Assembly (NCBI GenBank): GCA_024579835.1
Contig: CP102060.1
Coordinates: 2,951,558-3,015,557, forward strand
Direction: 5' to 3'
Source of the DNA: Clostridiaceae bacterium HFYG-1003
GTDB lineage: Bacteria > Bacillota > Clostridia > Clostridiales > Clostridiaceae
Length of the DNA: 64,000 nucleotides
Below are positions 13,835 through 17,019 of this stretch, piece by piece. Position 1 is the first letter of the stretch, and each line of letters starts with the position of its first letter. A model generated the notes under the pieces. It was given only the letters and a program-made list of their open reading frames with translations. It ran no database searches and was not told the origin of the DNA. The translations under genes were made by a program, and so were the position numbers.

Positions 13835-14182
13835 ATGAAACTGTTACAATCCTGGCTTTTGACCACGCTCGCGATCCTGGGAGCTTCCCAACTGATGCCC
13901 CAAAGCTTCCATGTCGATTCGGCAGCCACCGCGGCTGTTGCCGCCCTGGTCCTGGGAATCCTGAATGTGACCATCAAGCCGATTCTGCACATCCTGTCAT
14001 TTCCCATTACGCTCCTAACCCTCGGCCTGTTTTCCTTTGTGATTAATGGCATCATTATCAGCCTGCTGGCCCGGCTCATGTCCGGAATGGAAGTTTCCGG
14101 CTTCCTGTCCGCCCTGCTGGTCGCCATCGTCATTTCAGTCATCCAATCGATCCTTCATTCCTTTACCAAGTCCAAGCGCTGA
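13835..14182 (+). CDS. YvlD-like four-helix membrane protein (phage holin family 4 superfamily)
   Basis: 115 residues, four hydrophobic segments, with the family pattern LNVTIKPILHILSFPITLLT followed by GLFSFVINGIIISLLARL. Members are often annotated as phage holin family or DUF membrane proteins and in Bacillus (YvlD) belong to cell-envelope stress operons; no prophage genes are near, so a lysis role is not indicated. GGGAGGAATCCAT precedes the ATG. It is a single gene upstream of the selenoprotein gene on the same strand, 98 bases apart. Confidence 0.8.
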   Translation: MKLLQSWLLTTLAILGASQLMPQSFHVDSAATAAVAALVLGILNVTIKPILHILSFPITLLTLGLFSFVINGIIISLLARLMSGMEVSGFLSALLVAIVISVIQSILHSFTKSKR

Positions 14183-14243: not shown

Positions 14244-14280
14244 ACAATTAATAGTTAACAAATGATGAGGAGGTGTCATG

Positions 14281-14565
14281 ATGAACATCATCATTGACCC
14301 GGATGCAAGAGAACTGATTGAAACCAAAGGGAACTGCGAATTCACGCTGGATCTGATGCGTGCCCAGGGCTGATGCGGTGCGATTGAGCAACCAATGGTT
14401 TCATTGGGAAAACCCCGCAGCAAGCCCATTCTGTTCACGCCGGTGAATCTGGACGGGCTGACCATGTACAAGCAGAATACCTTCGGCGAGGACCTCAGGT
14501 TCCGGATCAGCGTCAGTAAAGTCCTGTTCTGGAAGATGCTGCGGATTGAACCGTACCGCGAATGA
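14281..14565 (+). CDS. Small selenoprotein with a UC motif (HesB/IscA-like, CC/Se family)
   Basis: The frame runs 94 codons if the TGA at 14371-14373 is read as selenocysteine (residue 31): ...LDLMRAQG-U-CGAIEQPMVSLGKP... and ends at TGA 14563-14565. AGGAGG is 7 bases before the ATG at 14281; the adjacent ATG at 14278 is too close. A hairpin with GU at the start of its loop follows the UGA, as a bacterial SECIS should. The N-terminus (MNIIIDPDARELIETKG) resembles HesB/IscA-like small proteins, and a Sec-Cys or Cys-Cys pair is the mark of a family I recall as CC/Se motif (seleno)proteins. A redox or metal-sulfur role is inferred only. Automated callers would end the protein after 30 residues. 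The alternative is a nonsense mutation, but reading-frame continuity plus the SECIS argue against it. Confidence 0.8.
14374..14419 (+). promoter_or_regulatory. SECIS element after the UGA codon
   Basis: Directly after the UGA, TGCGG (14374-14378) can pair with CCGCA (14415-14419). Inside, CCAATG (14392-14397) pairs perfectly with CATTGG (14402-14407), leaving the loop GTTT. The G-U of the loop is 24 bases after the UGA, within the range of known bacterial SECIS elements such as fdhF. It lies in the coding sequence, as bacterial SECIS elements do. Confidence 0.75.
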
Positions 14566-14688: not shown

Positions 14689-14731
14689 GAGCGAAATCGA
14701 CACGTCCCGGAAGGATGTGTCGATTTCGCTC
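14689..14731. terminator. Bidirectional terminator
   Basis: GAGCGAAATCGACAC (14689-14703) pairs perfectly with 14717-14731, between the selenoprotein gene and the convergent EamA gene. Confidence 0.75.
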
Positions 14732-14765: not shown

Positions 14766-15650
14766 TCAGGCATGGTTTCCCTGGACGGGTTCGGGCTTTT
14801 TCGCCGGCTTGATTTCTGCCAGCAGGATCGCGGAAAAGATAATGAGTCCGCCGGCGATGAGCCGTACGGTCATGGTTTCATTAAGGAACAGGAAGGAGAA
14901 CAGGGTTCCCCAAAGGGATTCGGTGGAAAGCAGGATCGCAGAGCGCGTTTCACTGGTGTATTTCTGTCCGTAGGCCTGCAGCAGAGTGGTCAGGCTGGTG
15001 GAAAAAACGGCCAGGTAGAGGACGGAGACCAGTCCGGATTGGTTGAACGGGGCGAAGGGGGTTCCTTCTGCGGCGGCAGCCAGCCCGGACAGGACCATGC
15101 AGGTGACGGTCTGGATAATGGCGATATCCGCCGGATGTTCTTTTTCCATATAGAGAGTGGTGTAGAAAATGTGGAAGGCAAAAGCCACGGCACACCCAAG
15201 GGTCAGAAGGTCACCGATGTTTACCTGGCCATCGGTCCGCAGAGTCAGAAGCCCGATGCCGATGATGGACAGCACTGCTCCGAATACTTCCTGTCTGGCC
15301 AGTTTCCGCTTGTACAGAAAGTATGCGATGATGGGAACAATGATGACGTTGACGCCGGTCAGGAAGGCGTTTTTGGATGGCGTGGTGTATTTCATGCCGA
15401 AGGTCTGCAGCACGAATCCGATAAAGAACAATGTACCCAGGATGATTCCCCGGTGGATGGTTCGTTTTTTTAACTGAGGCACTCGCTTGTGAAAAACGCC
15501 CGCCAGAATCAGCGATGCGATGGAAAATCGCAGGAACAGGAGCTGCAGGGGCGTCAGGCTGTCCAGGGAATTTGCCACGGCGACGAAACCGTAGCCCCAG
15601 ATGATGGCGGTCAAAAGCAGAATGATCTCCCCCGGGATCTTTCGTTTCAC
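14766..15650 (-). CDS. EamA-family (DMT superfamily) transporter
   Basis: 294 residues with ten hydrophobic segments in two EamA halves (residues 5-140 and 150-285). It opens IPGEIILLLTAIIWGYGFVA, typical of the drug/metabolite transporter superfamily, whose members export amino acids, other metabolites or drugs. The start is GTG at 15650 with AGGAGG nearby. It is a single gene and the substrate is unknown. Confidence 0.88.
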   Translation of the reverse strand: MKRKIPGEIILLLTAIIWGYGFVAVANSLDSLTPLQLLFLRFSIASLILAGVFHKRVPQLKKRTIHRGIILGTLFFIGFVLQTFGMKYTTPSKNAFLTGVNVIIVPIIAYFLYKRKLARQEVFGAVLSIIGIGLLTLRTDGQVNIGDLLTLGCAVAFAFHIFYTTLYMEKEHPADIAIIQTVTCMVLSGLAAAAEGTPFAPFNQSGLVSVLYLAVFSTSLTTLLQAYGQKYTSETRSAILLSTESLWGTLFSFLFLNETMTVRLIAGGLIIFSAILLAEIKPAKKPEPVQGNHA

Positions 15651-15822: not shown

Positions 15823-16896
15823 CTATTTAATGTTCAGGTCCTCCAGGAGGCCTGCGATGGCGTCTTTCATTCGAGTCTCGTTGATCCGGTAGCCGTTTTT
15901 GCGGCGGTTGGCATCAAACTGGATGAGCCGATCATTGGTCAGCTGCTTCAAATGATAAGAAATCGCGGCGCTGGTCACTCCAAGCTTTTCAGCCAGGACC
16001 TTCGTGGAGGAATCACCCTGGGCAATGAGTTTCAGGACTTCATAGCGGGTTTTATCCGCCAGGTTCTTGAAGACCGTGATTCGTTCCTCTTTGCTGCGTT
16101 GTCTGAACTCGGTCAGACGGAAGTAATAATCCAGGACATTGATTCCGAGGAAGATATCCGTATAATCTGCATGGGTGATCAGATTGAAACTGTAGTCGCT
16201 CAGTCCCAGCAGATAGAAATTGATGGTTTCACTTTTTCGAAGGGCTTCGATGGTTTCAGTAAAAACATACTGTTCCATCATCGCCTCCAGCAGGGCGTGA
16301 TCGCCGCTGGCCAGAGTCCGCTCCAGCTGTTTGGCATAACCAGAAATGGAATATTCCACATCCTGGTAAAACTTGTGAAAAATGGGCTTTACCCGTTCCA
16401 TGAAGGCGACAAATTCATCGCGGACGTGCTCGGGATCCTCCAGAATTTCCAGGAGCTTCCATTTATCACTGGTTTCCAGGGAGCTGGATGACAGGATCTG
16501 GAAGGCTTCCATCAGGTAATTGGGGGATTTTTCCGCCGTCGGGATGACCAGATCGAGCTTACGGTCAAGGAAGGAACTCAGATGCGCGGTTAAGGTGTCC
16601 TTGCTCAGCGCTTTGACGCTGGCTAAAAAATCATTCTCATCCTTGAGCTGGCGCAGGTCAAACTGATACATCAGATCAAAGTAATAGGAATAGCCGGAAA
16701 ACTTGAAGCGTTCGAATTCATCTTTCAATCCGGACATTTCTTCCGCGATCAGCGTCCACCGTTCGGTGGATGCCGGGTCCATGATTTCATAATTCAAGGC
16801 GCCGAATGCCTTTTCACTTTTCTCGTACAGAGCCAATGCGGGGAAAAATACAAATTCCACGACTCTACTGGATCCCAAATAGAATTGGAATTTCAT
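15823..16896 (-). CDS. ArsR-type winged-helix regulator with long N-terminal domain
   Basis: 357 residues. The last 90 form a winged-helix domain of ArsR type: FKNLADKTRYEVLKLIAQG, then helix-turn-helix VTSAAISYHLKQLTNDRLIQ. The 265-residue N-terminal part is helical and unassigned; similar architectures occur in Firmicute regulators of unknown signal (DUF5937-like). The start at 16896 has AGGAGGAAAG before it; an in-frame ATG at 17019 lies within the promoter and is rejected. A TTAAAC-N4-GTTTAA palindrome at the promoter suggests autoregulation. It does not carry the metal-binding cysteine pattern of classic ArsR sensors. Confidence 0.85.
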   Translation of the reverse strand: MKFQFYLGSSRVVEFVFFPALALYEKSEKAFGALNYEIMDPASTERWTLIAEEMSGLKDEFERFKFSGYSYYFDLMYQFDLRQLKDENDFLASVKALSKDTLTAHLSSFLDRKLDLVIPTAEKSPNYLMEAFQILSSSSLETSDKWKLLEILEDPEHVRDEFVAFMERVKPIFHKFYQDVEYSISGYAKQLERTLASGDHALLEAMMEQYVFTETIEALRKSETINFYLLGLSDYSFNLITHADYTDIFLGINVLDYYFRLTEFRQRSKEERITVFKNLADKTRYEVLKLIAQGDSSTKVLAEKLGVTSAAISYHLKQLTNDRLIQFDANRRKNGYRINETRMKDAIAGLLEDLNIK

Positions 16897-16975
16897 GTTT
16901 CTTTCCTCCTGCGGAAGGGTCGGGATGGAATGGGGCACAGGCTTAATGTAAACCTTTTTAATCTTTGAATATAAA

Positions 16976-17019
16976 TTAAACCCTTGTTTAATATTAGGGC
17001 CATTCACTGAATTTGTCAA
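16976..17019 (-). promoter_or_regulatory. Promoter and candidate operator of the ArsR-type gene
   Basis: Minus strand TTGACA (17019-17014) and TAATAT (16996-16991) are 17 bases apart, close to consensus. The palindrome TTAAAC-CCTT-GTTTAA (16976-16991) sits just downstream of the -10, where a repressor would block transcription; autoregulation is an inference. Confidence 0.65.

Follow-up and report, generated by a model that had tools for sequence, protein, structure and literature searches.

A probable Sec-Cys selenoprotein of the CC/Se motif family with a predicted IscA-type fold in a Clostridiaceae genome

The cluster ligands of E. coli IscA are Cys35 and a C-terminal CGC pair, and the CGC is invariant in the A-type carriers IscA, ErpA, and SufA (Pfam PF01521). 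In the arsenite metallochaperone ArsD, which belongs to the separate Pfam family PF06953, adjacent Cys residues bind As(III). Adjacent Sec and Cys residues in general can form a selenenyl-sulfide. The closest described family for the protein reported here is NCBIfam NF041239, the 'CC/Se motif family (seleno)protein'. Its accession was found in one paper, a 2026 review (PMC13188914), which assigns no function to the family; in its Table 1, the entry is a hypothetical protein that was predicted in Moorella thermoacetica and has one Sec in a CxxU motif. For the HesB-like (seleno)protein TIGR01911, which is likewise small and Sec-containing and to which its name assigns a HesB-type fold, the motif printed in the same source is UxGP.

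The gene studied here lies in a window of 64,000 nucleotides (the whole stretch of contig CP102060.1 that was analysed) from Clostridiaceae bacterium HFYG-1003. An earlier note on this DNA had described a 94-codon frame that is broken only by a UGA directly before a Cys codon, and the sequence agrees: the frame starts with the ATG at 14281, ends with the UGA at 14563-14565, and has the UGA at 14371-14373 as its sole internal stop, while a second in-frame ATG is located just 5' of the start, at 14278. Very probably this is a genuine selenoprotein gene and a new member of the known CC/Se family, whose UC placement differs from the printed motif. The decoding of the UGA as Sec, the membership in the CC/Se family, and a HesB fold are jointly assigned a probability of about 0.85. 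The features of the locus are the following.

13835 to 14182, + strand: gene of a Phage_holin_4_2 membrane protein, the upstream neighbour (same place in congener G001)
14268 to 14273, + strand: ribosome binding site AGGAGG, 7 nt 5' of the ATG at 14281 (sequence)
14281 to 14565, + strand: probable selenoprotein gene that encodes 94 residues, Sec31-Cys32 among them, and ends with the stop UGA at 14563-14565 (NF041239 match across the UGA, orthologs, model)
14371 to 14373, + strand: in-frame UGA, the predicted Sec31 codon (the syntenic ortholog L020 also has UGA here; UC in 11 of 11 loci L133-L143)
14374 to 14376, + strand: TGC codon of Cys32, the partner of Sec31 (sequence, conservation)
14392 to 14407, + strand: putative bacterial SECIS (bSECIS) hairpin, 6-bp stem CCAATG/CATTGG, loop GUUU (30 of 30 cells paired in five genes; within the published constraints)
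14689 to 14731, + strand: terminator-like hairpin between the selenoprotein gene and the convergent EamA gene (sequence scan)
14766 to 15650, - strand: EamA-type transporter gene, the convergent downstream neighbour (homolog in the same place in congener G001)

The ribosome binding site that had been claimed is found as AGGAGG at the expected place, 7 nt before the ATG. The claim of a promoter in place did not hold up, as the sole sigma-70-like match between 14100 and 14800 (14255-14282) overlaps the start codon and 0.7 such matches are expected by chance; terminator-like sites in the same interval number three versus 0.7 expected by chance. The second gene downstream of the selenoprotein gene (15823-17019, - strand) encodes a protein of 397-398 residues with a C-terminal ArsR-type HTH, and no such gene was seen beside the ortholog in congener G001.

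Frames of this kind are frequent. Within the window, 74 UGA read-through frames reach a length of at least 85 codons, and 19 of them pass a naive rule for SECIS-like hairpins, so the sequence pattern alone is weak evidence and the naive rule was rejected as a discriminator. The same counts favor the explanation that the gene is decayed or the read-through a matter of chance, the product then being a 30-residue peptide or nothing, and this explanation has to be weighed against the homology, the conservation, and the decoding machinery.

When the read-through protein was compared with NCBIfam, residues 1-90, across the UGA, matched NF041239 at 53.4 bits (cut-off 40), which is the outcome of the database search proposed in the earlier note; the family is therefore already known. 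Because the family is covered by a curated NCBI model, the statement that gene callers would miss the gene is doubtful. The window protein has the size of the family, a similar N-terminus, the GKP motif, and Sec or Cys at the pair, and the UC at residues 31-32 falls under the family's motif rule (Cys-Cys or a Sec-containing motif at the loop). It differs from the CxxU printed in Table 1 of PMC13188914, as residue 28 is Ala and the Cys follows the Sec; the CxxU form is carried by the paralog L021. A Pfam scan of the window protein gave no family at E ≤ 10, PF01521 had no match in the window's genome at E ≤ 0.001, and TIGR01911 was not among the matches listed for the window protein at E up to 10, a search in which HMMER filters drop most weak matches.

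At E ≤ 0.001, family matches were present in all 3 genomes from the genus; at the level of the taxonomic family the count was 16 of 96 genomes, at that of the order 46 of 225, and at that of the class 37 of 391. Matches over the NF041239 cut-off occurred in 3, 7, 20, and 27 genomes, respectively; the sets overlap and include the window's genome. No relative was found in viral contigs, and none in genome contigs when a single protein was used as query. The window's genome itself encodes three paralogs, namely the UC form (window gene, L018), the CxxU form (L021, G000:C1:840009-840284), and L019 (G000:C1:1243612-1243890), which has neither Cys nor Sec and reads TSGES at the place of the motif. 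L019 lies downstream of CobT-VWA-like and AAA genes and may keep another function of the fold. L021 and the CxxU paralogs of two congeners, L016 and L017, immediately follow an SDF-family symporter gene and, by eye, precede an rpsB-like gene. A link of these paralogs to cystine transport was considered and dropped, the best NCBIfam names for the SDF-family neighbour being GltP/DctA, below the cut-off.

The ortholog in congener G001 (L020) is 51% identical, keeps the UGA and the Cys, and is likewise flanked by a Phage_holin_4_2 gene and a convergent EamA-type gene. Between the two genes, dN is 0.55 and dS 1.07 downstream of the UGA, and 0.35 and 1.36 upstream; the constraint downstream of the UGA is moderate only, with dS near saturation. 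When the main UC group was used as an aligned query (A2, five UC rows and one CC row, L089, which was not recovered), 11 more distant loci (L133-L143) were found, all 11 of which carry UC; the search patterns exclude the motif itself, and the loci are not all independent of the query, several of them (e.g., L136, L137, L139, and L142) being already in the set. Homologues with neither Cys nor Sec had been named in the earlier note as what would speak against its proposal; the paralog L019 is such a case. L020 and 11 of 11 distant loci keep both UGA and Cys. In a tree of 80 members (L070 and L129 left out, L130 trimmed, bootstrap not fully settled), the window gene, L020, and L095, all UC, are grouped at 97/86 inside a 98/93 clade that also contains four CC proteins. 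Given the starred branches, the UC label must have changed at least three times, and the Sec-Cys form has therefore been gained or lost repeatedly.

The window's genome also encodes the machinery for Sec insertion. The presence of selA, selB, selC, and selD had been proposed as a check, and selB (371 bits), tRNA-Sec (68 bits), and both selD and selA, which lie near selB, are all over their cut-offs. A cysteine-desulfurase-like gene between selB and selA is below the cut-offs of the models that it matched, and near the tRNA-Sec gene a reductase selenoprotein B gene (TIGR01918, over cut-off) and a GrdE/GrdG-like gene are found. In-frame UGAs are also present in selD (L039:8364-9305, the upstream UGA in CGGU) and grdB (L040:15812-17260), which suggests that these two are likely selenoprotein genes themselves.

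The proposal of a small selenoprotein with a Sec-Cys pair is thus supported by the NF041239 match, by the UGA and Cys in L020 and 11 of 11 loci, by CC relatives in the same clade, and by the Sec machinery. Three of these speak against a decayed gene or chance read-through, as the match spans the UGA, the UGA and Cys are kept in the congener and the 11 relatives, and the machinery is present in the genome. Since the homology extends across the UGA, the window frame is more than chance, and we regard the chance explanation as highly improbable. The predicted decoding of the UGA at 14371-14373 as Sec is strongly supported by these sequence comparisons.

The perfect 6-bp hairpin with loop GUUU, with its GU 24 nt downstream of the UGA, is present as the earlier note had described it. 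According to the review (PMC13188914), bSECIS elements have a loop of 3-9 nt, a stem of 4-16 bp, a G in the first two loop positions, a distance of 16-37 nt from the UGA, and an MFE ≤ -7.5 kcal/mol. The window hairpin lies within these constraints, with a 4-nt loop, 6 bp, the G in first position (14398, at a distance of 24 nt from the UGA), and a folding energy of -13.2 kcal/mol for a stretch of 45 nt. Conservation was assessed in five genes, namely the window gene, its ortholog L020, and the three CxxU-type genes of the genus. Here, 30 of 30 cells of the inner hairpin are paired, two pairs are changed on both sides, and the loop GUU is conserved. In a shuffling test that comprises five sequences only, which coding also constrains, the paired cells and the covariation score were reached by 8 of 500 shuffles and the count of two-sided pairs by 243 of 500. 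One of the five genes, L017, misses the published energy limit with -5.2 kcal/mol, and the folding z-score of the window stretch is weak (-1.14, with 26 of 200 shuffles folding as well). An equivalent hairpin is found in the main UC group, with 98.5% of cells paired and one pair changed on both sides; its score is reached by 55 of 500 shuffles. An outer stem, TGCGG (14374-14378) with CCGCA (14415-14419), had been proposed as well; all five pairs are present in the window gene, but only 3, 1, 1, and 1 of the five are possible in the four related genes of the genus, and the stem was rejected as a conserved element.

The motif at the pair varies widely within the family. Among 82 fetched rows, it is CC in 29, UC in 13, UU in 9, CU in 8, CxU in 8, CxxU in 6, another U-containing form in 5 (including L130, which has a long N-terminus), a single C in 2, and neither in 2; the rows include the window gene and some members below the family cut-off, matches without a fetched locus are not counted, and L036 and L037 (unrelated by eye) as well as L096, L105, L111, and L114 (cut or of odd length) are left out. 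The predicted Sec occupies different positions of the pair in different branches, which is new here, as are the adjacent UU forms of a sister clade.

The nine UU loci, which have two consecutive in-frame UGAs, form one side of a 96/93 branch in the 80-member tree. When eight UU loci were used as query against 398 genomes of the phylum, the best ten matches all had two UGAs and were all UU. The total is 19 UU loci (L115-L123 and L180-L189) in 18 genomes, and one further two-UGA match (G673:C15) is kept outside the count. An alignment of the UC profile with the UU profile has a probability of 97.6%, and of three UU proteins compared with NF041239, two score over the cut-off (42.1 and 41.7 bits) and one below (37.2). 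In the nine UU loci that were folded, a hairpin follows both UGAs. The adjacent UU motif is absent from the motifs printed in the review table (PMC13188914), and among the papers listed in literature searches there was no adjacent Sec-Sec bacterial protein and no such selenoprotein in ars operons; two papers cited in the review (PMC12013261 and PMC9879109) may describe the UU form.

The UU loci also stand out by their surroundings. ACR3-type genes are located within 6 kb of 7 of 19 (one of the seven, in G436, is N-masked and seen in part), and aldehyde ferredoxin oxidoreductase-type genes near 9 of 19 (one of these, L194, is on the opposite strand and has ACR3 nearby as well); 15 of the 19 have one or the other nearby and four have neither. 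ArsD-type genes are found near three UU loci and ArsA-type genes near four. One representative per gene cluster was confirmed by HMM, the other neighbours being assigned by BLAST clusters: over cut-off are the representatives of ACR3 (406.5 bits, cut-off 282.8), ArsA, ArsD, and arsenite methyltransferase, and by Pfam those of an ArsR-type regulator and AFOR. In a neighbour clustering of 53 family loci with four genes per side, the ACR3 cluster was drawn from 6 of 9 UU loci and 0 of 44 others. ArsA-like genes also occur near one CC member, L076. The CC members L075 (G105) and L076 (G106) are near P-type ATPase genes (CopA-like by eye), one of them with an ArsA-like ATPase gene upstream, a context that hints at metal handling. 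Arsenic or aldehyde ferredoxin oxidoreductase genes thus lie near UU members, and none was found directly beside the window gene. The methyltransferase beside the UC member L139 is UbiE-like and below the ArsM cut-off, and a link between UC members and ArsM, which would have been based on this one locus, was dropped.

The structure of the window protein was modelled by AlphaFold2 with 11 relatives, giving a pLDDT of 83.0 and a pTM of 0.74 for the best of five models and a pLDDT of 42.4 for the worst. The modelled elements are arranged as E-H-E-E-E-E-E-E, and the Sec-Cys pair is in the low-confidence loop between strand 2 and strand 3, with pLDDT < 50 at residues 29-31. In Foldseek against the PDB, the window model had no match at E ≤ 0.001; the nine best matches (best E 2.7e-3) comprise IscA, SufA, two 'putative Fe-S biosynthesis' proteins, and AQ_1857, presumably an IscA homolog. 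VIA gave a Z of 8.8 to IscA (1r94; 89 residues, 3.5 A), and the sole chain listed outside ten IscA-type entries has a Z of 2.2, where we take DsrR, YneR, hi1723, and AQ_1857 to be of IscA type. VIA values below 8 may mean merely a common arrangement, and those obtained here are just above this limit and clear of unrelated chains. For the relative L133, the five models were more uniform (pLDDT 86.8-89.8, best 89.8), its best Foldseek match was IscA 1x0g at E 4.4e-4, and VIA gave a Z of 9.2 to 1r94.

By sequence, the window protein is 7-10% identical to IscA and SufA chains. A profile comparison by hhalign with the three E. coli A-type carriers IscA, ErpA, and SufA, which set the pair on the IscA Cys35 loop, was not significant (probability 3.9%), and the family profile against sequences of solved structures gave ribosomal-protein matches only, at E 0.47 or worse. 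Membership in PF01521 or TIGR01911 by sequence was rejected, as there was no match and the profile comparison was not significant. The fold predicted for the window protein by the models is HesB/IscA (IscA/SufA). The guess in the earlier note of a HesB/IscA-like protein stands as far as the predicted fold is concerned, but finds no counterpart in a sequence-model match or in the C-terminal CGC of IscA.

In one alternative reading, the protein would be an A-type Fe-S carrier like IscA with Sec and Cys as cluster ligands. The match to IscA and SufA, the non-significant hhalign placement on the Cys35 loop, and the position of the CU-type L126 (G482) upstream of cysteine-desulfurase-like and ThiI-like genes (by eye) agree with such a role. 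On the other hand, the window protein lacks the set of three cluster-ligand Cys of IscA, having no C-terminal CGC and ending without Cys; no Pfam family matches; and besides L126 no isc or suf genes were present in the neighbourhoods viewed by eye, which are a part of those fetched. We consider an Fe-S carrier unlikely.

In the mechanism that we propose, SelB with Sec-tRNA would be directed by the GUUU hairpin just after the UGA at 14371-14373, and the ribosome would insert selenocysteine, yielding a 94-residue protein with adjacent Sec31 and Cys32. For this protein, the models predict the fold of the A-type carriers IscA and SufA, with the pair in the flexible loop between strand 2 and strand 3, where by residue matching it would sit at the place at which IscA carries Cys35. 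This vicinal selenol-thiol pair might take up a soft metal(loid), or a thiophilic ligand of another kind, and hand it on. That the pair binds such a ligand is put at somewhat short of an even chance. The As(III) binding by adjacent Cys in ArsD resembles the pair, and ArsD-type genes accompany the three UU loci mentioned, whereas ArsD itself is of a separate Pfam family. It is the UU clade that has the arsenic context, which could be extended to the UC protein by analogy only.

Alternatively, the Sec-Cys pair could be a redox centre, the protein being a small thiol-selenol oxidoreductase or electron-transfer domain that cycles through a vicinal selenenyl-sulfide and binds no metal. The capacity of adjacent Sec and Cys to form this bond fits such a role, and one UU group is located near aldehyde ferredoxin oxidoreductase, ferredoxin, and [FeFe]-hydrogenase-type genes. 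Furthermore, the majority of uncharacterised selenoproteins are, in the view of the review (PMC13188914), redox proteins. It speaks against a redox centre that the predicted fold is IscA-like and not thioredoxin-like, that ligand binding is at least as good an explanation for the ars genes near the other UU group, and that the window protein is without the UxxC/CxxU spacing. We consider this reading plausible and would stop short of calling it probable. In our view, metal(loid) capture is the most likely function, with reversible selenenyl-sulfide redox as a close alternative.

For the family as a whole, we tentatively suggest that CC/Se proteins may be carriers of the HesB/IscA fold that use a vicinal chalcogenol pair to capture soft metal(loid)s; depending on the branch, Sec would occupy the first position of the pair, the second, or both. 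The UU clade would then be the first described family with a genetically encoded adjacent Sec-Sec pair, for which two consecutive UGAs would be decoded with one hairpin. This wider proposal is held with less confidence than ligand binding by the pair.

The predicted IscA/SufA fold, the natural permutations of Sec and Cys, and the arsenic and aldehyde ferredoxin oxidoreductase context of the UU members make the function of the family directly testable. The UU form in addition poses a decoding question, namely how one SECIS-like hairpin serves two consecutive UGAs. The fold assignment and the UU clade are the parts most worth following.
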